This document shows, one piece after another, positions 3,400-27,754 of a stretch of 27,754 nt of DNA (its first letter is position 1; each line of letters begins with the position of its first letter). Under the pieces are notes generated by a model. That model saw only the letters and a program-made list of their open reading frames with translations. It was not told the DNA's origin and searched no databases. The position numbers were made by a program, and so were the translations under genes. The DNA comes from a virus, in IMG/VR virus record IMGVR_UViG_3300025112_000142, positions 1 through 27,754 of that record. One strand, given 5' to 3'.

Positions 3400-3806
3400 G
3401 CAACACCCCGCTTAGCCCACAGCTCAGACAGCGCCGCCTCACCATCGATAAAATGGCGGTGGCCATCCTTGGTGGCCGTCGCCAGCAGATCCCCGCGCAC
3501 AATGGGCACCTCGTCGCTGGGCACGCCTTCCACATGCACCACGTGCCCGCCCAGCTTACGGATGCGGTCAGCCTCTACCCGATGCACCACGTGGGCCACC
3601 ACCAAGCACTCCGCGCCCTTGGCCGGGGTCGCGCTAATCATCCCCTCAAGGCGCTGCATGCGGCGGGCCACTTCGGCATGAGAGCCAAAGCGCTGCGCGG
3701 GCGCATCGGTGTAGACCGACACGGTACAAATCTGCGCATCACGCATTGCCCGCGCCACGCGCTCGCGTGCCGTCGCGTTAGCGCCAGCAATTCCAATCAA
3801 TAGCAT
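3396..3806 (-). CDS. Phage dNMP-kinase-like protein with degenerate P-loop
   Basis: 136 residues. The start LLIGIAGANATARERVARAM has the strand-loop-helix layout of phage deoxynucleoside monophosphate kinases, but the Walker A signature is broken: GANATAR stands where G-x-G-K-[ST] is expected, so the nucleotide-binding Lys is absent. The middle (AECLVVAHVVHRVEADRIRKLGG) looks like a Rossmann-type strand-helix with a regulated partner loop. It may bind a nucleotide without phosphorylating it, or be an inactive relative. The ATG at 3806 has AGAGG upstream and overlaps the preceding stop by 10 bases; longer reading frames have no ribosome binding site. Confidence 0.55.
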   Translation of the reverse strand: MLLIGIAGANATARERVARAMRDAQICTVSVYTDAPAQRFGSHAEVARRMQRLEGMISATPAKGAECLVVAHVVHRVEADRIRKLGGHVVHVEGVPSDEVPIVRGDLLATATKDGHRHFIDGEAALSELWAKRGVA

Positions 3807-4775: not shown

Positions 4776-5429
4776 ATGTCACAGCAAAGCGACAGGCAGG
4801 ACAAAAAAGAACTCATCGCGCAGCGCCTTGTAGAAGTGCGCAAGCACCTGGGGTGGTCGATCCGCGATGCAGTGGAAGCCCTCGGCTACGTGCGTTCCCG
4901 CTATACGAACTGGGAACTCGGCATACGCATGCCCGGCTATCAGGAATTAGAAGACATTGGCAACGTAACCGGCTGCAACCCCGGCTATTTTGTCGGCTGG
5001 ACAAACCGCATGATCGACAGCAGCTACGTCGTGCTAGACCGCACCACGGTTAAAACCCGTGGCGGCTCGATCACCGTGCAAAACGCCACCGATGTAGCCG
5101 CCTACCGCGACGACTACCTAGCCGAAAAAGGGCTAAAGCCCAGCAGTATTATCACCGTCAAAGCCGAAGATGACGCCATGGAAGGGGTCATTAGCAAGGG
5201 CGATTTAGCCCTGATCGACATGAGCCGCAAGCCCGATGCCGTGCGCGACCTGTTCGCCATCCTCGTGGGTGATCGTATCTGGCTGCGCTGGATACGCCCG
5301 GAAATCAACGGCAGCTACACCATGAGCGCCGAAAACAGCCACCAATACCCGGATGAAACCCTCACCACCGAGCAGCTACAACAGCTCAACATCATCGGAC
5401 GCGTCGCCATCATCGAGCACGAACGCTAA
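4776..5429 (+). CDS. CI-type repressor with inactive S24 domain
   Basis: 217 residues. A helix-turn-helix occupies about 12-65 (RDAVEALGYVRSRYTNWELG) and a LexA/CI-type C-terminal domain about 105-217 (VISKGDLALID, ILVGDRIWLRW, YTMSAEN, IIGRVAI). It should maintain lysogeny by binding the ACAC-N5-GTGT operators around it. The autoproteolytic dyad is missing: where the family has Asp-Ser-Met-Glu this protein has DDAME (Ala134), and at the LexA Ser-to-Lys spacing of 37 residues there is Arg171. No Ala-Gly cleavage pair is evident in the linker. It should therefore not self-cleave upon RecA activation, and induction probably relies on an antirepressor such as the ORF6N protein at 9322. A purine-rich ribosome site precedes the ATG. 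Confidence 0.9.
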   Translation: MSQQSDRQDKKELIAQRLVEVRKHLGWSIRDAVEALGYVRSRYTNWELGIRMPGYQELEDIGNVTGCNPGYFVGWTNRMIDSSYVVLDRTTVKTRGGSITVQNATDVAAYRDDYLAEKGLKPSSIITVKAEDDAMEGVISKGDLALIDMSRKPDAVRDLFAILVGDRIWLRWIRPEINGSYTMSAENSHQYPDETLTTEQLQQLNIIGRVAIIEHER

Positions 5430-9164: not shown

Positions 9165-9321
9165 GCTATTTTTGTGCCCGCGTGATGCACTATGGCGGGC
9201 CGTGCGTGGGGCGCTTCGGCGCGCCGGGTTTCCAATGTCCCCGGTCTGCTAACCCGCGTACGGTTCGCCTCCATCGTTTAGCAGCGGTAGGCGAACTCCA
9301 ACAGACTTGGAGAATCGCAAC
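9165..9321 (+). ncRNA. C4-antisense-RNA-like leader of the antirepressor gene
   Basis: A GC-rich, structured leader between the repeat gene and the antirepressor. It has the hallmark block CACTATGGCGGGCCGTGCG, a UUCG-capped hairpin and CCGGG/CCCGG pairing, similar to leaders upstream of ash/ant genes in enterobacterial prophages and to the P1/P4 C4 RNA. Two mutually exclusive pairings are visible: CTGCTAA (9246-9252) with TTAGCAG (9278-9284), and GTTCGCCT (9263-9270) with AGGCGAAC (9289-9296), the latter close to the ribosome site GGAG. In P1/P4 the C4 RNA is cotranscribed with ant and shuts off its expression. Assignment is from memory of the motif. Confidence 0.55.
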
Positions 9322-10104
9322 ATGAAAACACCCACCATTTCAGTTTCTGGCGTTACCCTTCCCTATATCGAGTATCAGCAGCAGCCTGTTGTCACTTTTG
9401 CCATGATCGACGGCGTACATTCAAAGTCTAAAGCAACAGCACGGCGCTCTTTTCAGCGCAACAAAAAGCATTTTATTGAGGGTGAAGACTTCTATGCCCT
9501 TGATTCTGAAAGGTTGGGACAAATTGTCACTACCTATCCTGACCTGTTTCCGGCGGCTACTACACGCCTAACGCTCTTCACCGAAACCGGCTACCTCATG
9601 CTGGTCAAATCGTTTACCGACGACCTCGCTTGGCAAGTGCAGCGCCAGCTCGTCAAAAGCTATTTCCGCGTAAAAGGGGCGATGCAGCCCACCGCCGCCG
9701 AGCCCATCCCCACGCCCATCGACCACCGCCAGCGCGAACAGCTCACCAACGCGGCTAACGCCGTGTTTCGCAATTTCCACGGCATGCGCCAAAGCGCCAC
9801 CGGCTGGTTTTACAACGGCGTGCGAACCGACTACTGCCTAAAACGCATCGAAGATTTAAGCCAGGACGACTTCCCGGCAGTCATGGAACGCCTGCAAGCC
9901 CTACGCCCCAAGGTGCGCCAATACGAAGATTTTAGGTATGACTTTCAACAGTCGTTTTTAAAAGAGGTCGTAGGCGAAGGCCAGCCGTACACGGCATGGA
10001 TCAGCAAGCTCGCCGGTGGCCAACACCACATCGGCCAACGCCCCAACTGGAAAGCCATCGCCAAGCAAGTGCTAATCCACAACGGCCTACTCACCAAACA
10101 GTAA
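9322..10104 (+). CDS. ORF6N-domain phage antirepressor
   Basis: 260 residues. The N-terminal 110 match the ORF6N/Rha-type DNA-binding domain of phage antirepressors: VVTFAMIDGVHSKSKATARR, FIEGEDFYAL, LFTETGYLMLVKSFTDDLAW, VQRQLVKSYFRV. The C-terminal part (about 140-260) is a helical effector region with QRPNWKAIAKQVLIHNGL. It should relieve CI repression, which matters here because CI lacks the self-cleavage dyad. It follows a C4-like leader RNA, as Ant does in P1 and P4. The start at 9322 follows GGAG. Confidence 0.85.
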   Translation: MKTPTISVSGVTLPYIEYQQQPVVTFAMIDGVHSKSKATARRSFQRNKKHFIEGEDFYALDSERLGQIVTTYPDLFPAATTRLTLFTETGYLMLVKSFTDDLAWQVQRQLVKSYFRVKGAMQPTAAEPIPTPIDHRQREQLTNAANAVFRNFHGMRQSATGWFYNGVRTDYCLKRIEDLSQDDFPAVMERLQALRPKVRQYEDFRYDFQQSFLKEVVGEGQPYTAWISKLAGGQHHIGQRPNWKAIAKQVLIHNGLLTKQ

Positions 10105-12060: not shown

Positions 12061-12116
12061 AGCGTTATTGCGCGCTAGCGTTATTTCACGCTGTAACGCC
12101 AGCACGCAAAAACGCA
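12061..12116. repeat. 8-bp box array 7 (seven units), parA leader, proximal
   Basis: AGCGTTAT, TGCGCGCT, AGCGTTAT, TTCACGCT, GTAACGCC, AGCACGCA, AAAACGCA, in unbroken octamer register. Longest array in the window and directly upstream of the partition operon, so it is the best centromere/operator candidate (compare the parFG operator of TP228, which also repeats on an 8-bp spacing). Confidence 0.85.
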
Positions 12117-12139
12117 ACGTTAGCCAAGGGGAAACACCA

Positions 12140-12784
12140 ATGGGATACAAGATTGCCTTCGTGAGCCAAAAGGGCGGCGTCAGCAAAAGCACCCTAAGCC
12201 GGGCGCTGGGCACCACCTACGCCGCCGCTGGCTGGAATGTAAAAATAGCGGATCTCGACATTAACCAATCCACCTCTTTCACCTGGTTACAGCGCCGCCT
12301 CAAAAGCGGCGTAACGCCAGAGGTGGCCGTAGAGACGTTCGGCACGGTGGCCAGCGCTCTAAAGGTGGCCGACACCTACGACCTAATGATTTTCGACGGT
12401 GCGCCCCACGCCACCAAAGCCACCGCCGAAGTGGCCCGGCTTGCGGATCTCGTCGTTCTACCCACCGCGTTAAGCGTTGACGACCTTGAACCCACCGTAA
12501 GGCTGGCCAACACACTCACCGGCCAAGAAGGCGTGCCCATTGAGCGTATCGCCATCGCGCTGAGCAAAGTGGGCAAGAGTAAAACGCAGCTGCAGGATGC
12601 CCGCGCCTACCTCAGCCACACGCCCTATTTTGTACTCGATGGCCAAGTACCCGAGCGCGACGCGTTTGTATTAGCCCAAGATAAAGGGCTGTCGATTGTT
12701 GAAACCCCATTCAAAGGCCCGAAGGCCCAAGCGGATGAACTGATACAAAACATCATCAACCGCTTTGAATCGCTTGTTAATTAA
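12140..12784 (+). CDS. parA: ParF-type ParA partition ATPase
   Basis: 214 residues, the size of short class Ib ParA proteins. Residues 11-18 are the deviant Walker A KGGVSKST (a Ser replaces the usual second Gly); Walker A' is ADLDINQST and Walker B-like DLMIFDGAP follows at about residues 85-93. It would form a dynamic ATPase layer on the nucleoid that moves plasmid copies apart with the ParG-like protein. The ATG at 12140 has AAGGGG 8 bases upstream; an upstream ATG at 12068 would read through the box array and has no ribosome site. It is followed by array 8 and the RHH gene. Confidence 0.88.
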   Translation: MGYKIAFVSQKGGVSKSTLSRALGTTYAAAGWNVKIADLDINQSTSFTWLQRRLKSGVTPEVAVETFGTVASALKVADTYDLMIFDGAPHATKATAEVARLADLVVLPTALSVDDLEPTVRLANTLTGQEGVPIERIAIALSKVGKSKTQLQDARAYLSHTPYFVLDGQVPERDAFVLAQDKGLSIVETPFKGPKAQADELIQNIINRFESLVN

Positions 12785-12815
12785 GCGTTATATAACGCTA
12801 GCACGCTAAAACGCA
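12784..12815. repeat. 8-bp box array 8 (four units), between parA and parG-like gene
   Basis: AGCGTTAT, ATAACGCT, AGCACGCT, AAAACGCA. It begins on the last base of the parA stop codon and ends before the ribosome site of the RHH gene. Confidence 0.85.
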
Positions 12816-12827
12816 GGAGCTAACACC

Positions 12828-13070
12828 ATGGCAAAGCCAAGCATGAAACCCAGCAGCAAAGGCGCACCGCCCACAGCAGCCACCCCCGGCCCGGTAGTAG
12901 GCAACAACACCAGCAAGCCGGAAAGCGGCGAAAAGGTTCCGCTTAACTTTCGCGTTGATCCTGAAATGCGCCGTGAATTTAAAGCCTTCGCCGTAGAGCA
13001 TGACATGCAGATGGTGGACGTGCTCAAAGAAGCCTGGGCGGCGTACAAGCGGGAAAAAGGGAAGGGCTAG
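12828..13070 (+). CDS. ParG-like ribbon-helix-helix centromere binder
   Basis: 80 residues. Residues 1-35 are a disordered Pro/Ser/Lys tail (starting MAKPSMKPSSKGAPP); residues 37-75 are a ribbon-helix-helix: VPLNFRVDPEMRREF as strand plus helix A, then MQMVDVLKEAWAAYK as helix B. Tail plus RHH is the ParG design; ParG tails stimulate the ParF ATPase and modulate DNA binding. The gene follows parA by 43 bp with AGGAG before the ATG. It is the best candidate to bind the eight arrays of 8-bp boxes in this window. Confidence 0.82.
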   Translation: MAKPSMKPSSKGAPPTAATPGPVVGNNTSKPESGEKVPLNFRVDPEMRREFKAFAVEHDMQMVDVLKEAWAAYKREKGKG

Positions 13071-15414: not shown

Positions 15415-16380
15415 CTAGTGTCGTCGCTGCCGGTCTAACCACTCTTCATACGGCGGGTATTTGATGCGTACCAGCTTGTTAACCTCGGCATAGCTGGCAC
15501 CGGGGTTATTCGTCACTATCTCGGCAAAATACGCGGCGGCTTCGCGGTTATAGCGCCGCTGCAGCTCTTTCTCGTCGTTAACGTCCGGCAGATCCGCTTT
15601 ACCTCGGCGCTGCTTCTGCATCGCCTTGGGGCCGCTGCCTGCCATCGCCAAGCGGCGTCGGGCTTCGGCGGCGTCGTGTGCCTTGGGGTACTGTTCGCGG
15701 TATTTGCGGCGGGCCTTCTTAATGCGGTTGCTGCACCAGTCGCGGAACTCCTTAAACTTCTGGTAGCCCACACGCCCCAGCGCCAGCAGAAAATCGGGGT
15801 TGAGCAGCTTCACGGCAGGCCGCGCTCGCTTCGTGCCGTCGGCTTTCACTTCATGCTGCAAATGCACAGTAAACGCGCCCGCCAGCTTTAAGCGCCGGAA
15901 GGCCCGCCAAAAGCGTTGGCTGGGCTCCGGGGCGTCGGGGGTGCTGCCGGGGGCCAGCAGGCCCGCCACGCGGGCAATTTCCGCACAGCTGCGATGTTTA
16001 AAACCACCATCCGCTAGCGGGGTGCCCACGCGCAGGCTGGCGAACTCGGTAAACTGGATAATCGCAGAAAGCACCAGCGACTCAGCGGCGCGGGCCTCAG
16101 ATCGGTTACAACGGGGGTTGCCGTCAGCGTTGGCCTTGCCGTTCAAATTCGCCAGCGTGGGCAATAGGCCGGGGCTGGTGTAGTAGGCTTTGGCACCGTC
16201 TACCAGCGCTTGCAGTGTGGCGGGTAGCCGCCCCTTTTTAACGGGCTGGCAATAGCGCTCAAACTCGCCTTTAGCGGGGTTATGCCCGCACCGGTTACCG
16301 GTGCCCCACCACTTGCCGTGGTGTTCGTATGGCACGCGCCCCCACGTGAGGGGCTGCGCGTTCTCTGCTGCAGCATCCAT
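15415..16380 (-). CDS. repA: IncFII-type RepA-like replication initiator
   Basis: 321 residues. The middle has the layout of IncFII/IncB-type RepA proteins: a helical SLVLSAIIQFTEFASLRVG, a winged-helix-like HRSCAEIARVAGLL followed by RFWRAFRRLKLAGAFTVHLQ, then LNPDFLLALGRVGYQKFKEF and a very basic helix RIKKARRKYREQ. It would start replication at the origin that lies downstream. The N-terminus (WGRVPYEHHGKWWGTGNRCG) has Cys/His but I do not recognise it. ATG at 16380 chosen; the ribosome site is weak (GAG), consistent with leader-controlled translation. Expression is probably limited by the antisense RNA at 16437-16517 and by a CI operator on its promoter. Confidence 0.55.
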   Translation of the reverse strand: MDAAAENAQPLTWGRVPYEHHGKWWGTGNRCGHNPAKGEFERYCQPVKKGRLPATLQALVDGAKAYYTSPGLLPTLANLNGKANADGNPRCNRSEARAAESLVLSAIIQFTEFASLRVGTPLADGGFKHRSCAEIARVAGLLAPGSTPDAPEPSQRFWRAFRRLKLAGAFTVHLQHEVKADGTKRARPAVKLLNPDFLLALGRVGYQKFKEFRDWCSNRIKKARRKYREQYPKAHDAAEARRRLAMAGSGPKAMQKQRRGKADLPDVNDEKELQRRYNREAAAYFAEIVTNNPGASYAEVNKLVRIKYPPYEEWLDRQRRH

Positions 16381-16436
16381 TTGCAAAATCTCGCTTGAGA
16401 CTTGCCCGCGCCTTGTGCAGCAGTTAAACTCTGAGG

Positions 16437-17264: not shown

Positions 17265-17900
17265 TCAATCCCACTCAGTCGACCAGTCCAGCGTAAGCGG
17301 ATCAGTCCCCGCCGCTACCGCGTCAACGTGCTGCCCTTCCAGCTCGATCAGCGCGGCGCGGCGTTGGCCGATTTGGCGTAGCGCGGTTTCTACATCCGAT
17401 ACCGGGTGCTGGGCGTGGTGTTTGCCTGCGCTGTCTTTCCAGCTCGCAAACGTGGTCATGCCTGCGTCAGCGGCGGCGGTGAGCGCTTCTTGCATTGCTT
17501 GCCGATTGTCCGCGCTGCCGTCGTAATGTACGCCGTTGAGGGTGACGCCAAGAGCCTCAGCGGCCTTGCGCTGGGCCTTTACCTGCGGCTCCACCTGGGC
17601 GCGGTGGTAGTCGAGCAATTTAGCGGCATCGAAAAACGCGGTGTCGTCGCTTTCAGTTGTGCCGTGCTGCACGTAAACGGCTGCGTCATGGGTGCTCAGG
17701 CCTGCATCTTTAATCGCGTCTAGCCGCTGTTGCTGCTCTGGCGTTAGCGTTAACGGCTCTATCTGCAAATCAGACAAATGCCCGTGCTGGGCAATTAGTT
17801 GCTCAAAGTAGCGGCGGTCGTCTGCGTAGTGTGTGCGCTCAACATCGTTATCGTAAAAGCGTACTTTGTACTGCTTGGGGGTCATATCGTCGCGTAGCAT
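17265..17900 (-). CDS. Tail-fibre-associated protein with DUF4376-like C-terminus
   Basis: 211 residues. The N-terminus (MTPKQYKVRFYDNDVERTHY) resembles short phage tail proteins; the C-terminal 100 residues have the DUF4376 pattern seen in tail-fibre assembly or tail-fibre-linked proteins: LGVTLNGVHYDGSADNRQAM, LTAAADAG, WKDSAGKHH, VSDVETALRQIGQRR, LIELEGQHVDAV. The start at 17900 has GAGG 6 bases upstream and overlaps the 3' end of the reverse transcriptase. It is the last gene of the tail/DGR operon and may help fold or attach the variable tail protein. Confidence 0.65.
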   Translation of the reverse strand: MLRDDMTPKQYKVRFYDNDVERTHYADDRRYFEQLIAQHGHLSDLQIEPLTLTPEQQQRLDAIKDAGLSTHDAAVYVQHGTTESDDTAFFDAAKLLDYHRAQVEPQVKAQRKAAEALGVTLNGVHYDGSADNRQAMQEALTAAADAGMTTFASWKDSAGKHHAQHPVSDVETALRQIGQRRAALIELEGQHVDAVAAGTDPLTLDWSTEWD

Positions 17901-18940
17901 AGTGGCCTCACGTGGAAACGTTGGTTGGTGAAATATATGTAGCGGGTGCGCTGGCAGGCGGTGGTAATGAATCGCTCGCACTCTGCGAGCTGGGCATAGC
18001 TGTACCAGCTGTTAAGCGACTGCAGCGCCTCGTTGGGCGTTAAGCGAAACGCGTGCAGCAGCCGATCAAACGCGCCTAGGCGCTTAATGATCCGGGATTT
18101 AGCTTTAGAGGTTAGCGTGATGCGTGCCGGGGTGATGCGATACCCCAGCGCTTCCAGCCCTTGCTGCGGGCGCAGTGGGCGGATAAAGCATTTGCGGTCT
18201 GGAAAAGTCAGGCGTATTACGTCGCGCCCAAAGGCGCGGACAGCCGCCAGCACATCGCCCGCATGGGCTTTGCCGTCAACGATCATTATGAGATCGTCGG
18301 CATAGCGCACGTAATGCCGCACGCCAAGCCGTCGCTTTATATGCTGATCAATTTCGTTCATTAGCACATTGGCTAACAGTTGAGACGTTAAATTACCCAG
18401 CGGCAAGCCAATATCATTAGGCGAGCTATCGATAATCTTGTCTAAGAGCGCAAGCGTTTTAGCGCAAGTTATCTTTTTCCTTATAATGCCTTTAACAACA
18501 TCGTGATTAATGCTGTAAAAGAACTTTTGAACGTCGGCCTTTATAATCCAGGGGTCGGCGTAATGTCTTGACGCGCTGCGCATGTGCCGCTGAACTTGCC
18601 TTACCGCTTTATGATTGCCTTTGTTTCTTATGCAGGCGTAGCTGTCGTGTATAAACTTGGGCTCGTAAAAATCGCGAAGCGTTTCGTTAATGGCATGCTG
18701 AACAATCTTGTCTCGATACCTGGGGGCATATATCACGCGCTCTTTAGGCTCAAACACCACGAACTCTTCGTAATCTTCGGGCGTGTAATGGCCGGAGGCT
18801 ACTTCACGCCTTAGCCTCTCCAGGTTTTCTGTTTCGTTGGCAGCAAAGCGTATAGCGGCGGCTTTGAATTTCGGGCTAGCGGTTTGGGTTTTGCGGTACG
18901 CGGCGTAAAAATTGGCTTCTGAAACAATGCGCTTAAACAT
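17882..18940 (-). CDS. DGR reverse transcriptase
   Basis: 352 residues. Group-II-like reverse transcriptase with the features of the DGR clade: ERVIYAPRYRDKIVQHAI (motifs 1-2), KADVQKFF with catalytic Asp (about residue 136), IGLPLGNLTSQLLANVLMNE (about 177-196; the GNLTSQ form is characteristic of DGR enzymes) and HYVRYADDLI with the YADD catalytic box (about 213-216). No maturase or endonuclease domain, and a length normal for DGRs. It copies the template-repeat RNA with adenine mutagenesis and delivers the cDNA to the variable repeat. ATG at 18940 chosen because AAGG lies at good distance; an ATG six bases upstream is too close to it. A terminator lies between template repeat and this gene. 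Confidence 0.95.
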   Translation of the reverse strand: MFKRIVSEANFYAAYRKTQTASPKFKAAAIRFAANETENLERLRREVASGHYTPEDYEEFVVFEPKERVIYAPRYRDKIVQHAINETLRDFYEPKFIHDSYACIRNKGNHKAVRQVQRHMRSASRHYADPWIIKADVQKFFYSINHDVVKGIIRKKITCAKTLALLDKIIDSSPNDIGLPLGNLTSQLLANVLMNEIDQHIKRRLGVRHYVRYADDLIMIVDGKAHAGDVLAAVRAFGRDVIRLTFPDRKCFIRPLRPQQGLEALGYRITPARITLTSKAKSRIIKRLGAFDRLLHAFRLTPNEALQSLNSWYSYAQLAECERFITTACQRTRYIYFTNQRFHVRPLCYATI

Positions 18941-18950
18941 TGCCATCCTT

Positions 18951-18988
18951 AAAAAAAGCGAGGGCGCTAATACGATGAGTAGCGCCCT
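18951..18988 (-). terminator. Terminator/attenuator between the template repeat and the RT gene
   Basis: Minus strand: AGGGCGCTA/TAGCGCCCT stem (18980-18988 and 18961-18969), 10-nt loop, then CGC and seven U (18951-18957). It ends 11 bases before the RT start and would give a TR-containing RNA distinct from RT mRNA. Confidence 0.85.
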
Positions 18989-19107
18989 CTTACGGTTTTC
19001 TGCCGAATGAACTTAATCACTGGCAGCAGACAAACACCCCCTTGCAGTGTGTTAAACACCAACATCATCTCTTGCAAGCCGTAACCGACAAGATGGAAAA
19101 ACAGCAG

Positions 19108-19206
19108 GGCGGGCCGCCAACCGATATTGCTATTCGCATTCGACGCGGTATTGCGATCGAAGTTCGCCAAGTCGTCATTGCCACGGTTAGCGCGATTGGA
19201 GGAGTT
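19108..19206 (-). repeat. DGR template repeat (TR)
   Basis: 99 bp, aligned without gaps to the variable repeat at 19640-19738 (constant offset 532). 24 adenines in the sense strand; 11 of them differ in VR and none of the other positions do. The sense strand carries nine Asn codons (AAC/AAT), the classical design that yields many amino acids by A mutagenesis. Its 3' side is the GC-rich GGTTGGCGGCCCGCC. The TR 5' end overlaps the stop codon of the accessory gene. Confidence 0.97.
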
Positions 19207-19564
19207 ACGGCGCTTGCCTGGGCCTGCTAGCAGACTTCATAAATCCTACCAGAATTTTCTTAAGCTCGGTAATTTTTAGATCAATCTGGGAAAAGAACCC
19301 GGCGCTGATATAGCGCTCGTTCCTGCTGAGTCGAAAAAGCGTCACTAAATTATTCATATAAGCTGCCGCCTCTTGAAGCGCCGTCTTGCGTTTACTGGGC
19401 ACCATTTTAGCCAACCCTAGCCGCTCTAACAGATTTACAAAGCAGCCCTTAATATGCGCACAAAGCGCGAACTTTTCGGACTTAGGGTAGTTTTTAAACG
19501 CTGGGTAGACCTGGAAAAATAGCGCTTCTGCTTTCGCATAAAGAATGAGGCTATCACGTTCCAC
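19205..19564 (-). CDS. avd: DGR accessory variability determinant (Avd)
   Basis: 119 residues, basic, four-helix-bundle type: ERDSLILYAKAEALFFQVYP, FALCAHIKGCFVNLLERLGLA (region), TALQEAAAYMNNLVTLFRLSR and FSQIDLKITELKKILVGFMK. This is the Avd family, which forms a barrel that binds the reverse transcriptase and TR RNA. Start chosen at GTG 19562-19564 (AAGGA 8 bases upstream); a longer frame would begin with TTG inside a hairpin. The stop overlaps the TR. It lies between the variable gene and RT, the usual DGR order. Confidence 0.85.
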   Translation of the reverse strand: MERDSLILYAKAEALFFQVYPAFKNYPKSEKFALCAHIKGCFVNLLERLGLAKMVPSKRKTALQEAAAYMNNLVTLFRLSRNERYISAGFFSQIDLKITELKKILVGFMKSASRPRQAP

Positions 19565-19588
19565 TGTGCTTATCCTTACGCTACACGT

Positions 19589-19614
19589 GCGGGTCAAGCC
19601 CGCCCGCTTCGCGG
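19589..19614 (-). other. Hairpins just downstream of VR
   Basis: In sense orientation, CCGC-GAA-GCGG (19614-19604) and GCGGG-CTTGA-CCCGC (19603-19589) follow the target stop codon by 2-12 bases. DGRs such as BPP-1 need a hairpin/cruciform shortly after VR with a GA-rich loop for efficient retrohoming. The first hairpin, 26 bases from VR with a GAA loop, fits that role; its short stem makes this tentative. Confidence 0.55.
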
Positions 19615-19615
19615 A

Positions 19616-20665
19616 TTAGTTATTAGGGATTAGTTCCAAGGCGGGCCGCCAACCGAGACCGCTATTCGCAGTCGACGCGGTAGTGCGAACGAAGTACGCC
19701 AAGTCGTCAGAGCCACGGTAAGCGCGAGTGGAGGAGTTTGCGTCACTCGCCTCTTGCGTCCAGCAGGCGCGGCCATTGCCGCTGATATTCAGCTCAGCAT
19801 TGCTGAAGCCTGCCCAGTTCGCTCCCACCTGGGGGCCGCCGTGGCGGTCGAGTCGCATGCCATCAGTGCCGTCATCGGTCGGCACACCGGTATGCACGCG
19901 GTACATCAGCTCGTTCCACTCTGAACCGCCGCCGATATTCATCTGAGGCATGTCATCGGTAAAAAATAGCGGATCTGATTCGGGGAACGGATCAGCGCCA
20001 GCCCCGGTTAGTAGCCGCACGATAAAGCGGTTGCCGCCGTGCTCTACCGTCGTATATTGATTCGTGGGCGTGCCGCGTGGGCTCTTGCCGTCGTCGTTCG
20101 TGCCGTACACGATGCCGCGTGCATACAAATGATCCCAGCTCACGGTGTGCATAAACGACTGTTTTGCCACAAACAACACTTTGCCGTGGCGCGCGAATTT
20201 CAGCCAGCCCGCGCTGCTGTTTTGCAGCACGCCTTCGGTGACGCCCAGCTCAAACGCCAAACGGTCACCGGAATAAAACTCCCCCGCCGACACTTCGCCG
20301 AAGTAGCCAGCACTCATGTCGCCCGCGATCAGTTCTTGCGGCCCTGGGCCGTAGGCCAGCACGGCGCTGCCTGCGTTGCTGCCCACGTAGTAGACCGACA
20401 CAAACAGCTGCAAGCCGCTGCCGCTGGCAATGAACTGGTCGCCCGCTTCTAAATTAAAGCTCTTTTCAAGCGCCACTTCGTCCGCTACGGCTTTGCTGCT
20501 GAACACGGTGTGGGTGGTGTTCGCTGCCGCGTTGAAATACTTGAGCGTTAGATTGCCGCTGCCGGTGCATAAAATGCTGTGCGCGGTGGCTTCCGTGCCC
20601 TGCGGTACTGTGAAAATCGTTTGATCACTACCCGTGAGGGCTTTTGCGTGTGTGCGTAAGGCCAT
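19616..20665 (-). CDS. DGR variable tail protein (C-type-lectin-like target)
   Basis: 349 residues. The N-terminal 105 are a beta-rich region (FTVPQGTEATAHSILCTGSG, LYVSVYYVG-like strands); residues 115-349 look like a C-type-lectin/formylglycine-enzyme-like fold: GWLKFARHGKVLFVAKQSF, FIVRLLTG, SEWNELMYRVH, ACWTQEASD, and the end GWRPALELI, typical of DGR targets. The last 33 codons or so are the variable repeat. As a receptor-facing tail protein it would let the phage change host binding. AGGAAA precedes the ATG. It is the last tail gene before the DGR machinery. Confidence 0.9.
   Translation of the reverse strand: MALRTHAKALTGSDQTIFTVPQGTEATAHSILCTGSGNLTLKYFNAAANTTHTVFSSKAVADEVALEKSFNLEAGDQFIASGSGLQLFVSVYYVGSNAGSAVLAYGPGPQELIAGDMSAGYFGEVSAGEFYSGDRLAFELGVTEGVLQNSSAGWLKFARHGKVLFVAKQSFMHTVSWDHLYARGIVYGTNDDGKSPRGTPTNQYTTVEHGGNRFIVRLLTGAGADPFPESDPLFFTDDMPQMNIGGGSEWNELMYRVHTGVPTDDGTDGMRLDRHGGPQVGANWAGFSNAELNISGNGRACWTQEASDANSSTRAYRGSDDLAYFVRTTASTANSGLGWRPALELIPNN
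19640..19738 (-). repeat. DGR variable repeat (VR)
   Basis: 99 bp at the 3' end of the target gene. Compared with TR: 11 substitutions, all at TR adenines (sense), at plus positions 19657, 19659, 19660, 19671, 19683, 19689, 19696, 19710, 19711, 19720 and 19728. Nine codons change: Asn to Thr, Tyr, Ser, Tyr, Thr, Thr and Gly, Asp to Val, and Ile to Leu. The 3' GC-rich end matches TR; beyond it the sequences part, so this side acts as the mutagenic homing start site. Confidence 0.97.
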
Positions 20666-22578: not shown

Positions 22579-24060
22579 TCAGCCCCACAGCGTTAGCGTT
22601 AGTTTGTTGCGGGACGTGTCCGGCTTGCGTCCCACTACCAGAAAATCACGCCCGGCGGCATAGCCCAGACGCGGCGTAATAATGCGGACGGAATCCCCTA
22701 AGCGCAGCGTTGGGGCCGCTGTTACACGGGCCTCAACGCTCACGCTATCGCGCCGGGGCGACAGCAGTTCCAGTACGCGATCAGCCACTGCTTGCCCCTG
22801 CCCGCGCGTACCCAGCCGTGATGCAATGCGCAGGGTATCCGCTAGCGGGTGCCGGTCCTTGGTCGCTTCGCTGGTGGCCACTGCCTCGCGCACCGCTTTT
22901 TCCAGCCGGGCGGCGCGGCCATCGCTCACCACGCCCGCCAGATCGGTTTGCGTGGTTTCGATGGGGTCGGCTTCAACGATCACTTCGCCCACGGGCAGGC
23001 CGTTACTGCCCCCGCCCGAGGCGTCGCGAGTGATCGTGAGTATTTGATAATCGCGCAGCGTCAGCACCGGGGCAGCGGGTGCTGCAATAACACCCGCCCG
23101 GAAACTGCCCGCTGCATCAATGCGGCAGTAGCCGCCAATGCTGGTGGCAATGCGCTCCAGCAGCTCCAGCGTTGATGCCTCATCGGTTAGCAGTAGGCGT
23201 ATATCACCCACTGCGTTTAGCGCGGCAACGTCATCACTGTGCATGTGCTGCCCGGCATCGCTCGCTATCGCCGCCATCACATCGCCTGCGCGGGTTTGTG
23301 GGGCGTCCGCATCCACCGTTAATTGGCCGACAGGCGATACACCCAGACGGATATAGCCGTTGATACGCCGCCACTTGCCGCGTGGCGGCTGCCATTCGCT
23401 CCACTGGCCAGCGCTCGGCCCCTCGTTTTCCAACGCCTCTAGGCTGCTGTAGTCGCCGTCAAACTCCAGCGGTACGCCGTTGTCGTAAACGGCGCTAACC
23501 GTGCAATCCGCATCACTGATTTGATAAATCAGTTTTTGGCTATTGACCTGCACCGGGGGCGCATTGCGCGCCTGCCCGTACAGCCGGGGTTTTACCGTGC
23601 CGCCTATATCATCATCGGTACCCTCCAGCCCATCGGGGGCGACGTTTGTGCCTGCATAGCGGGTGTTTGGGTGGGGTTGCTGCAACGTTTCTGCCGGGTC
23701 GCGCAGTTTGATCGACACCAACCGACGATCAAACCCGACCCGCGCCACTGCGCCCCGCCACAGCTCGGAAACGCCGCTATCATCAGCCAGCGATAACACC
23801 GCCAGCCGCCCATCCATGGCGTAGTCAGCAAGGTAATCAAAGCGGCCCTCCGTGTTGATTAACGTGGTTTCGCCGTACCCCGAACGCGCTGCGTTGCGGA
23901 TAATATCGCCCGCAAACATGCCCGCCTGATACAGCCCGGCTTGCTGAATCCCCACCCGCCAGCCGTGGCCCGCCGGGTCGCGGTAAGCGTCGGACGCAAA
24001 GCGCAGCGTCACCGCTGCGCCCGCCGGGTCCAGGGCGTCTATGCGCATTAGCCAAATCAT
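22579..24060 (-). CDS. Tail hub-like protein
   Basis: 493 residues, the length of siphovirus tail-hub or baseplate proteins that follow the tape measure gene. Repeated beta-strand pairs with conserved Gly/Asp turns (LRFASDAYRDPAGHGWRVG, LYGQARNAPPVQVNSQ), and a C-terminal domain (LRLGDSVRIITPRLGYAAGRDFL) typical of ring-forming hubs. It overlaps the tape-measure stop by four bases. The assignment is by gene order and general character. Confidence 0.55.
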   Translation of the reverse strand: MIWLMRIDALDPAGAAVTLRFASDAYRDPAGHGWRVGIQQAGLYQAGMFAGDIIRNAARSGYGETTLINTEGRFDYLADYAMDGRLAVLSLADDSGVSELWRGAVARVGFDRRLVSIKLRDPAETLQQPHPNTRYAGTNVAPDGLEGTDDDIGGTVKPRLYGQARNAPPVQVNSQKLIYQISDADCTVSAVYDNGVPLEFDGDYSSLEALENEGPSAGQWSEWQPPRGKWRRINGYIRLGVSPVGQLTVDADAPQTRAGDVMAAIASDAGQHMHSDDVAALNAVGDIRLLLTDEASTLELLERIATSIGGYCRIDAAGSFRAGVIAAPAAPVLTLRDYQILTITRDASGGGSNGLPVGEVIVEADPIETTQTDLAGVVSDGRAARLEKAVREAVATSEATKDRHPLADTLRIASRLGTRGQGQAVADRVLELLSPRRDSVSVEARVTAAPTLRLGDSVRIITPRLGYAAGRDFLVVGRKPDTSRNKLTLTLWG

Positions 24061-27000
24061 AAAGCCCCCCTTAGGCGCGACTCACTCGCCATATCCTCCA
24101 GCGCACGACTGCTTTTCTTGGCCTCGCTGATTTGCCCGTTAAATCCTGCCTGCTGAACAGCGACAGCGGCGGCAGCGTGACGGTTATTTTCTTCCTGCAA
24201 GCGCTTGTTTTCCTTGCGTGATTCTTGCAATTCGCGCTTAACGTCTTGCAGCACCTGCAGCACGTCATTACTACCAAGCGCGGGAAATTGCGGCAGGGGC
24301 ACATTAGGCATGGGTAGCTCTAGCGGGCCATCAGGGATGCGCATCAATCCAGTGGCGTCAACGCCCAATCGCCCGCCATCGCCGCGAGACAGAGGAACTA
24401 TCGCTTCGGGATCTGCTTCGCCCATCAATCCCATGTCGAACAGCGTTGGGCTTGAGACGATAGAGTTAGTCGCTACTCTGCCCATCTCGAAGACGCCGCC
24501 CTTCGCAAACGGCGCGGCTTTTCCTGTTACGTTTTTGTACTGCCTGCGCAGAGATTCCAGCTCGCTAGTCGTTGATGCGGGAGGTTTAGCGCGAATATCC
24601 CTTAGCTCGCGCTTCACTCGATCAAGCTCTCGCCGGGCCTTTTCAAGATCCGACGATACCTGCAGCTGCTTTTCGACTTGATCAAGCACGGCATACGCGC
24701 GGGTATCACGAATACGGCCCGCCCCTGCAATGTTGATCCACCCGTCAGTGTCCTTTGCAACAATTTTTCTGACGCGATCAAGATCGGCTTTAGTGGGGTT
24801 ATCGCCCATCAGGTCTTTGAATAGCTTTCGCTCGCTAGCATCCCTGCCAAAGCTGTTTTTTTGCTGCCTGCCTAATGATGAGATCTGCTTTTCTAGACGC
24901 GACTCATCGGACTTGCTAGCCGTTAGGCGGCGGTTGTACTCGCCCCTAGCATGCCCTACCCGTGAAGCCTCAAGGCGACCTTTCCCTTCTATATCAGCCG
25001 CCTTTTTCTCACGCTCAATACGCGCAACTTCCGCTTGAGCTACGCCCAGCGCGTTGATCGATTGGGTCAGGCTTTTAATGCCGCTGTTCAGCCCTACGAA
25101 CTGGTCTGTCGTTAGCGTCATCTCGCGCACTAGACTATTCAGCTCTTTCAGCTGATCGTTCGCACGCTCTTCTAGGCTCTTGGTGTTGTCTTCTGTCCCT
25201 TCTCCCGTTCGCGCCAACGCTTCTAACCGACTAATCGTCCCGCTTCCATCCTCGTCTAGCTTCCCGAAAATGTTGCGCAACTCTTTATCAGTCGCCATGC
25301 CGCTAAACGCTTTGCTGAACTCCTTGTAATCAATCAGACCATCAAGGCTTGTATCAATGTCGCTAAACATCGGCGAAAGCGCGCTTCCGATGCCTTTAGC
25401 AAGCCCCGCCAAGCGGCTGTTAGTCGCGCCCTGTCGGCTCCATATGCGGCGCCCGTTCACGTCCGTTTTATTCAGTAGCGAGTTGATTTGTCCGTCAGTT
25501 GCCAGCCCTCTTAACGCGGCCCGAACCTCTGCCTGAGTCAACTGCTCTTTGCCCAGCCGCTTCGACTCTTTTGTTAGCACTCCCGCTAAAATGCTGTCGG
25601 TGGGCATGCCCGCAATGATGACACTCTCTAAGCCGCTGATAACGCCGTCGGCATTTAGATCCACCGCGCGCACAATCCTGCGCAGCTGTTGATCGGTCGC
25701 GATGCCATCTAGGCCTTTTGACAGCTCGGAAAACGTTAATTTGCCGTCTAAATTGCCGTCGAGCATGTCAAACGCAGGGTTTAAGCTCTTAGCAATGCCA
25801 CCTGCCAAGCTGCCCACACGGGCGGCGGTCAGCTCTTGGCGAGTGATAATGCCATCACCGTTCACATCAACTTCACGAATCAAACGGCTAATTTCGGCAT
25901 CCGTTGCGATGGGGGATAGCGCGCTGCGAACCTGTGCATGCGTGAGCTGGTTTTTATCCAGCTCATTCATTTTGTTACGCAGCAGCGTACCCAGCACCGC
26001 ATCTGTAGGTAGTGACTGAATGATGACGCTCTCTAAGCCATCCATCACGCCGTCACCGTTGAGGTCTACTGCACGCATAATCGCGCGCAGTTCGGCGTCA
26101 GTGGCTTTGCCGCTCATCACGATGGCCAGCTGCTCACGGGTTAGCACGCCGTCGATACCGCCCGCCAGGGTGGCAAAGTGACCCGCTAAATTACTGGCGA
26201 TGTTGCTGGGGTTATCACCGCGCAGCACGTCACTAAGCTGGCTGCTAATGCCCTGGGTTTGCTCGCGTAGTGCCTGTTTCACCTCCTCGGCTATGTACTC
26301 TTCGGCGCTAATCTGATCAGGCAAATCCTTCAACGCGTCTAACACATCGCCCTGAATGCGCTGGAACGCGCCACCGCTGGCGTACATCGCTTCCCCTGCA
26401 GCCAGGTATTGCTCGGCGTACTGGGTAATGCTTTGTAGCGCGTTGCGGTCGCCTGATTGGGCAAGCACCAGCTGCCGGGCGAACTGGTCGCCTGCTTCGG
26501 TTAGGTTCATGCCTGGGGTGCCAGCGGTCGCATTTTGCTGGTCTACCCACTGGCTAATGCCGTTAAACGTGCTGCTGAGCTGGTCGTTCACCTGGGCGAG
26601 CGAACGGGCATACTCCTGCCCAGCCCGCGTAGCGTCCTGCTGTGCGGCGGCTTCGTCTTCCATGGCCCAAATGCGGCGTTGGGTTTCCTGCAACAGCGGG
26701 TCGAAGCCTTGCAGCTCTCGCTCACGCTGCAGCGCTAAGGCGGTTTGCTCGTCACCCAGCAGCCCTAAGAGCTGTAGCTGCTGGTCGAATGACTGCTTTT
26801 CAAACGCGGCGTAGGCGTTACGCACCTCGTTTTCTAGCGTGCTGATCTCGCCGTTTAGCTGGCTGAGGCGGTCGGCAAACACATCAACGCCGTTGCCAGT
26901 TTGCTCAAGCAGGGTTTGCAACCGGTCGAACGGGCCCGCTAGCTGCAGCAGCTGCACATAGTTACGCTGACCCGACTCGGTTAAGCGGTTTTGCTGCTCC

Positions 27001-27754
27001 ACCAGCTGCCGGAAACCCTCACGGGTAGACGGCAGCGCTAGGCCCATGGCACGCAGGCTAGCGGCAACGTCCTGCTGTAAATCAGCGGCGCGCTCGGCAT
27101 CGCTGAAAAACGCCGTGTAATAGCTGTTCTGCAAGCTGGCGAGCTGATCCACGCCGCCAGCCATCTGCGCGATGCTATCAGCGGCGCGCAATGCGCCAGC
27201 GGCTGAGGCGTCAAACTGCAGGTTGAGGCGGTCGCTACTGGCATCTAACAACTGCATGGCGTTAGCTGCCTGCACCACACGACCGGTCAACTGTTCGGCA
27301 TCCAGCCCTAGCCCGCGTAGGGAAGCGGAAAAATCACCATCTAACACATCGACCACGGCAAGCGTACGCGTGGCGAGCTGGTTAGCGATCCCGGCGGCGT
27401 CGCTGGCGTTCAAACGCACAGCCTGGGCGGCGTTGGCCATGGCCTGCGTTTTCTCTGCGCCGTTGTCTAGGTTGGCGACCGCCCCCACCATGGCGTTATC
27501 TAGCGCGGTGATGCCGTCTAAAAACGCCTTGGCGTTATCAAAGCCGTCGAACGTTTCTTCCAAGCGGGCCGTGTTAGGGTCATAAAACCCTACGGTGCCC
27601 AGCGCCCCACGGCTGTAAACACCCTCCCCGTAGTTTTCAAACAGGCCGCGACGCCCTGGGTCTACGTCCTGACCTACGGTGGCTAGCTCGAATTTAGGGG
27701 CGGTTTTGCCGCCACCAAACAGGCTGCTAATACCCTTAACGATGCCGTCAGCAA
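24057..27754 (-). CDS. Tape-measure-like tail protein with EF-hand array (partial)
   Basis: At least 1231 residues; the frame is open to the right edge, so the N-terminus is missing and the TTG at 27563 is not a true start. Long helical, Gln/Ala-rich stretches over the N-terminal half and a C-terminal coiled coil (ELQESRKENKRLQEENNR) fit a tape measure protein. Between plus 25210 and 26140 it carries tandem EF-hand calcium-binding loops: DLNGDGVMDGLE, DVNGDGIITRQE, DGNLDGKLTFSE, DLNADGVISGLE, DTSLDGLIDYKE and DEDGSGTISRLE, plus degenerate ones (DVNGRRIWSRQ). They form two copies of a module of about 134 residues. Unusual for a tape measure; could make tail assembly or DNA release calcium dependent. 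Confidence 0.75.
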   Translation of the reverse strand, partial: ADGIVKGISSLFGGGKTAPKFELATVGQDVDPGRRGLFENYGEGVYSRGALGTVGFYDPNTARLEETFDGFDNAKAFLDGITALDNAMVGAVANLDNGAEKTQAMANAAQAVRLNASDAAGIANQLATRTLAVVDVLDGDFSASLRGLGLDAEQLTGRVVQAANAMQLLDASSDRLNLQFDASAAGALRAADSIAQMAGGVDQLASLQNSYYTAFFSDAERAADLQQDVAASLRAMGLALPSTREGFRQLVEQQNRLTESGQRNYVQLLQLAGPFDRLQTLLEQTGNGVDVFADRLSQLNGEISTLENEVRNAYAAFEKQSFDQQLQLLGLLGDEQTALALQRERELQGFDPLLQETQRRIWAMEDEAAAQQDATRAGQEYARSLAQVNDQLSSTFNGISQWVDQQNATAGTPGMNLTEAGDQFARQLVLAQSGDRNALQSITQYAEQYLAAGEAMYASGGAFQRIQGDVLDALKDLPDQISAEEYIAEEVKQALREQTQGISSQLSDVLRGDNPSNIASNLAGHFATLAGGIDGVLTREQLAIVMSGKATDAELRAIMRAVDLNGDGVMDGLESVIIQSLPTDAVLGTLLRNKMNELDKNQLTHAQVRSALSPIATDAEISRLIREVDVNGDGIITRQELTAARVGSLAGGIAKSLNPAFDMLDGNLDGKLTFSELSKGLDGIATDQQLRRIVRAVDLNADGVISGLESVIIAGMPTDSILAGVLTKESKRLGKEQLTQAEVRAALRGLATDGQINSLLNKTDVNGRRIWSRQGATNSRLAGLAKGIGSALSPMFSDIDTSLDGLIDYKEFSKAFSGMATDKELRNIFGKLDEDGSGTISRLEALARTGEGTEDNTKSLEERANDQLKELNSLVREMTLTTDQFVGLNSGIKSLTQSINALGVAQAEVARIEREKKAADIEGKGRLEASRVGHARGEYNRRLTASKSDESRLEKQISSLGRQQKNSFGRDASERKLFKDLMGDNPTKADLDRVRKIVAKDTDGWINIAGAGRIRDTRAYAVLDQVEKQLQVSSDLEKARRELDRVKRELRDIRAKPPASTTSELESLRRQYKNVTGKAAPFAKGGVFEMGRVATNSIVSSPTLFDMGLMGEADPEAIVPLSRGDGGRLGVDATGLMRIPDGPLELPMPNVPLPQFPALGSNDVLQVLQDVKRELQESRKENKRLQEENNRHAAAAVAVQQAGFNGQISEAKKSSRALEDMASESRLRGAL

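Follow-up and report, generated by a model that had tools for sequence, protein, structure and literature searches.

Genes of the locus and their phage-plasmid setting

We analysed a linear fragment of 27,754 nucleotides from the IMG/VR virus record IMGVR_UViG_3300025112_000142, hereafter called the window. Along its minus strand, a target gene ending in a variable repeat (VR) is followed by avd, a template repeat (TR), a spacer (Sp), the gene of a reverse transcriptase (RT) of the diversity-generating retroelement (DGR) type and a DUF4376/tail-fibre-assembly-like gene. The target gene (19616-20665, minus strand) encodes a virion/tail-type protein of 349 aa, which falls into PHROG virion structural protein families. 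An N-terminal beta domain of about 100 aa precedes a C-terminal domain (19616-20356) terminating in the VR, which encodes residues 309-341 of 349. The C-terminal 246 residues belong to a phage virion protein family.

Searching solved structures with the target sequence gave no useful match, and a model of the whole protein built from 9 sequences (pLDDT 43) was unreliable beyond residue 95. The C-terminal domain was remodelled using an alignment of 42 sequences, which yielded a pLDDT of 95. The top PDB match of this model in Foldseek was the DGR variable protein TvpA (2y3c, E 4.4e-3), and VIA-align placed TvpA (Z 7.3), Mtd (Z 6.0) and TaqVP (Z 5.8) among formylglycine-generating-enzyme folds, all of them moderate scores with Z < 8. 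At scores of this order, a C-type-lectin fold is likely rather than proven for this domain. The same domain recurs in L048-L088, which are mostly long phage records, often as several tandem copies; a DGR RT was detected in 3 of the 43 records carrying the domain, while most lack one.

The next gene, avd (accessory variability determinant; 19205-19597, minus strand), encodes 130 aa matching Pfam bAvd (PF22296) above its cutoff (E 3e-15) and the PHROG family ‘Avd protein of DGR’, and also NCBIfam DivGenRetAVD at 7.6e-14, which is below the cutoff of that model. The RT (17882-18946, minus strand; 354 aa) matches RVT_1 of Pfam and the PHROG RT family, and its best PDB match, spanning nearly the full length, is the 8ub7 series (Reverse transcriptase; E 2e-41), with LPLGNLTSQ aligned to IPIGSLTSQ and YADD to YMDD. 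Thus, the xGxxxSQ motif typical of DGR RTs is present, as LGNLTSQ, in the RT adjoining the TR. A retron or defence RT was considered and rejected, as no retron or DRT model exceeded its cutoff. Scanning bacterial genomes with the RT returned a single distant match (30%, Brocadiia), and the host was therefore assigned by way of plasmid sequences. The end of the RT gene is overlapped by the DUF4376/tail-fibre-assembly-like gene (17265-17900, minus strand). In a scan for sigma-70 promoters, nothing scored above shuffled sequences.

Besides phage genes, including a tape measure gene and tail genes recognized by PHROG, the window encodes ParA, a ribbon-helix-helix protein and a RepA-like protein (12068-13070, plus strand; 15415-16386, minus strand), as well as an integrase (380-1663). 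The RepA-like protein is related to annotated plasmid RepA and is 89% identical to a protein on NZ_CP080628.1, a circular 45.8-kb plasmid of Halomonas qaidamensis XH36 that carries capsid, portal and terminase genes. The combination of the RepA-like protein, ParA and tail genes therefore marks the window, judged by its gene content, as part of a Halomonas phage-plasmid which also keeps an integrase. Two further features were observed in the window. The tape measure protein (24057-27752, minus strand) contains EF-hand-like DxNxDG repeats, and its relative on the plasmid is annotated as EF-hand domain-containing. Further, a C4 antisense RNA (9188-9275, plus strand; Rfam RF01695, 66.7 bits) lies directly before an ORF6N-domain gene (9307-10104, plus strand), an arrangement resembling P1-type antirepressor control.

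Adenine-specific differences in the window and its relatives

The TR (19108-19206, minus strand) lies between avd and the RT, and the VR (19640-19738, minus strand) forms the 3′ end of the target gene. An earlier note on this DNA had claimed that the two repeats differ solely at TR adenines and had named any change at G, C or T of the TR as evidence to the contrary. Realigned base by base with the minus strand as the sense strand, the repeats form 99 gap-free columns (TR composition A24 C31 G25 T19) with 11 mismatches, which fall on 11 of the 24 TR adenines and on none of the 75 other bases, exactly as claimed. A hypergeometric test of this pattern gave p = 2.0e-8, or 7.9e-8 after correcting for the choice of base. 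The changes comprise five A>C, four A>T and two A>G, and they alter nine codons, all nonsynonymously: seven Asn (to T, Y, S, Y, T, T and G), one Asp (to V) and one Ile (to L), again in agreement with the earlier reading. An independent repeat search recovered the same 99-bp pair at a spacing of 532, and the first mismatches outside the repeats concern non-adenines (C>T within 19105-19107, T>A at 19207); therefore, the boundaries of TR and VR are correct. Stop codons cannot arise from any A>N change in the TR codons, and about 1.6e14 protein variants are encodable through the TR adenines.

IMG/VR contains close relatives of the window, and the comparison of VRs across related phages suggested in the earlier note was carried out. 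The same TR layout is found in L002, L013, L004, L005/L010, L007, L009 and L029. Pooled over eight loci (the window, L002, L013, L004, L010, L007, L009 and L029), 116 of 184 TR adenines are changed in the VR, as opposed to 1 of 592 other bases; hence, the adenine-specific pattern recurs outside the window. Adenine was replaced by T in 52 cases, by C in 45 and by G in 19. The rarity of A>G agrees with the reconstituted BPP-1 system, in which G is disfavoured in most contexts (PMC12875486).

Two comparisons bear on the time scale of these changes. L002 is 92% identical to the window overall and its 97-nt TR shows 0 differences, whereas the two VRs differ at 14 positions, every one of them at a TR adenine. 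L005 (record G001) and L010 (record G002), which come from different metagenomes, differ by just 2 substitutions in 15,710 bp, and both are located at TR adenines within the VR (5204-5300 in both loci); the chance of both falling there by random placement is about 2e-6. Of all the comparisons, this pair indicates most clearly that elements of this type are at work over short periods. However, 21 of the 23 adenine sites are identical between the two VRs, and the two differing sites lie near the 5′ end. Under one full-length homing event, the probability that the 21 other sites stay unchanged is about 2e-12. To account for the two-site change, one therefore has to assume that a short patch was converted, that variants recombined or that sequences were mixed during assembly.

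Two other relatives show peculiarities at the locus. In L020 (record G006), the assembly contains a run of ten N exactly inside the VR, perhaps as expected for a mixed VR population in the sample, although this is not proven. In L047 (3001-4571, record G017), a single DGR has two neighbouring target-domain genes on its upstream side, and the record contains another RT match elsewhere.

Spacer RNA, IMH-like motif and loci without the cassette

The spacer (18947-19107, minus strand), about 160 nt between TR and RT, is a conserved structured RNA which pairs back onto the 3′ end of the TR. Across eight loci, the spacer and TR 3′ end share a fold of 53 consensus pairs with 98% of cells paired, and 9 pairs are changed on both sides; 0 of 500 shuffles were equally high on these measures, and slid versions of the fold used as a control were only 40-49% paired. 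The last spacer helix is a terminator-like hairpin (18960-18989) with a T-tract (18951-18957), together covering 18951-18989 on the minus strand immediately before the RT start codon. In its 10-bp stem, two pairs have changed in a compensatory manner among the relatives. The helix could mark the end of the template RNA and restrain expression of the RT.

At its 3′ end, the VR carries GGTTGGCGGCCCGCC (19640-19654, minus strand), followed by the IMH-like TTGGAACT; the TR copy of this end, at 19108-19122, is followed by CTGCTGTT. Two hairpins on the minus strand follow the VR. The first, CCGC-GAA-GCGG (19604-19614), starts 25 bp after the VR and has a 4-bp stem and a loop varying between GAA, GTA and GCA across relatives. 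The second, GCGGG-CTTGA-CCCGC (19589-19603), starts 36 bp after the VR; its stem measures 5 bp in the window and, judged by eye, up to 8 bp in L002 and L004. In phage DGRs, a hairpin or cruciform with a GC-rich stem of 7-10 bp and a GRNA loop has been described 4-34 bp after the VR (PMC3240598). The first hairpin fits this range in position, but its stem is short, and neither the GAA triloop nor CTTGA matches the GRNA tetraloop. A fold of nine sequences revealed no compensatory change in either post-VR hairpin, and in the window their stability does not differ significantly from shuffles (z -1.7).

In close relatives bearing the DGR, the 3′ end GCCCGCC-TTGGAACT (RPALEL) is near-invariant; L010 and L009 show single-base deviations. 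In contrast, it is altered to RPCLEL or RPVLEL/RPVLQL in the relatives in which the cassette was not seen, L033, L034, L037, L041 and L043; L037 and L041 extend just a few hundred bases beyond the gene, and L039 is too short to judge. In L034, taken from a 45-kb record without an RT match, the site (3742-3765) is empty: the target gene, 18 bases and a tail-fibre-assembly-like gene follow directly on one another. In L014 and L033, the cassette is replaced by a gene of 235 aa that weakly matches AP2 (L014 4747-5454), and a similar gene lies at the receptor locus of L043. The VR-equivalent ends of the DGR-less relatives are divergent, and the distant DGR-bearing L045 and L046/L047 have different 3′ sequences. 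The association between 3′ motif and cassette is, consequently, a feature of the close group, uncorrected for shared ancestry.

A bolder reading of these loci may be ventured, albeit one we hold to be doubtful. At the junction of the receptor and chaperone genes, the DGR could be a module open to exchange, its place being taken in some relatives by an AP2-domain mobile-type gene and left empty in others. Retention of the 3′ homing motif would depend on the presence of the cassette, gain or removal of which would thereby turn receptor diversification on or off, and the VR might be renewed in short patches and not only by full replacement.

Interpretation and comparison with known systems

We observe the complete set of parts, an adenine-specific difference that is repeated in relatives, each time with an outcome of its own, and a conserved RNA structure, and we consider it highly probable (about 0.96) that the locus is a complete, canonical phage-type DGR introducing random codon changes into the C-terminal domain of a tail-associated protein. 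Past adenine-specific retrohoming in the lineage is well supported by the compared sequences. The earlier view that the element has been active, and not just inherited, thus holds for past activity in the lineage, based on the adenine-only pattern, the full DGR parts, L002 and the L005/L010 pair. In this contig, the signs are likewise those of past activity, and present activity is inferred.

Three other explanations were weighed. The repeats might be an ordinary duplication under positive selection, with the adenine bias stemming from Asn codons at exposed loop positions, which would suit nine changes that are all nonsynonymous. Yet non-adenines are untouched even inside changed codons (1/592 over the eight loci), RT and Avd adjoin the repeats, and L005 and L010 differ solely at VR adenine sites; given the adenine-only pattern in the window and the pooled loci, this explanation has next to no chance and was rejected. 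Rather improbable, but the least so of the three, is a cassette once active in the lineage and now inert in this contig, its VR being the fossil of an old homing event. A single VR sequence is at hand for this contig and some close relatives are devoid of the cassette, as would be expected in that case. On the other hand, RT, Avd, TR, spacer structure and 3′ motif are all intact, and L002 shares the TR yet has another VR. Further, because TR and VR match perfectly at all 75 non-adenine positions, there is no visible decay since the last homing.

Slightly less probable again is a spread of VR variants chiefly via recombination between co-circulating phages, with DGR events being rare. Such exchange would be in line with the 21 of 23 adenine sites shared by L005 and L010, where the two differing sites near the 5′ end suggest a short tract, and with the divergent VR-equivalent ends retained by DGR-less relatives, but it leaves the origin of adenine-only differences from the local TR unexplained. 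A canonical DGR remains the preferred reading.

Its biochemistry can be sketched by analogy. In the BPP-1 system, it is the folded spacer that recruits the RT-Avd complex and from which the cDNA is primed (PMC12875486). Likewise, the TR-spacer RNA of the window would fold and recruit RT-Avd, the spacer would prime cDNA into the TR 3′ end, and misincorporation would occur at bases opposite TR adenines. The cDNA might then replace the VR, anchored at the GGTTGGCGGCCCGCC/IMH end and helped by the post-VR hairpins. Random codon changes in the target C-terminal domain would be the outcome; if the target is a receptor binder, as we suppose, they would alter the binding partners of the phage-plasmid.

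This kind of DGR is already well known, and the locus adds a member to it. What is modestly new is that the cassette is present in some genomes and absent from others at the same receptor locus, and that one VR change is restricted to a short patch, which a single full-length homing event does not explain. This DGR is clean and complete, the H. qaidamensis XH36 plasmid provides a relative in culture, and both occur together with natural cassette-present, -replaced and -absent versions of one receptor locus; therefore, it offers a good system for studying DGR gain and loss and the fate of the receptor once diversification stops. DGRs are broadly active in metagenomes (PMC8144416). A limited literature search, which does not speak for the wider literature or the large DGR catalogues, turned up no publication describing a DGR on a phage-plasmid of Halomonas.

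The C-terminal domain of the target is shared, by sequence and predicted fold, with virion structural proteins of the jumbo phages PhiPA3, Noxifer, PhiEaH1 and Rebecca. In contrast to the window, these have several paralogues per genome, and most long records with the domain have no DGR RT. In the DGR of Chromohalobacter phage YPCBV-1, target, avd and RT follow in the same order, and the host of this phage is related, Halomonas and Chromohalobacter both belonging to the Halomonadaceae, but its target is annotated as SUMF1/EgtB type and its RT is just 38% identical. The DGR of Bordetella phage BPP-1 (mtd-avd-TR-brt) resembles the locus in the order target(VR)-avd-TR-RT on one strand, in a DGR-type RT (31.6% identity, tblastn) and an Avd, in adenine-only VR changes, in hairpins, here putative ones, after the VR and in a structured spacer between TR and RT. 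Nevertheless, the target described here has no detectable sequence relation to a solved Mtd, the loops of the post-VR hairpins differ, the TR measures about 99 bp, and the element is carried on a phage-plasmid. On the XH36 plasmid NZ_CP080628.1, the DGR is unnamed and annotated just as RT, four helix bundle and hypothetical proteins. It has a different VR and about 6% divergence in the RT protein, but it is the same cassette at 90% DNA identity, with the same target family and synteny across much of the window.
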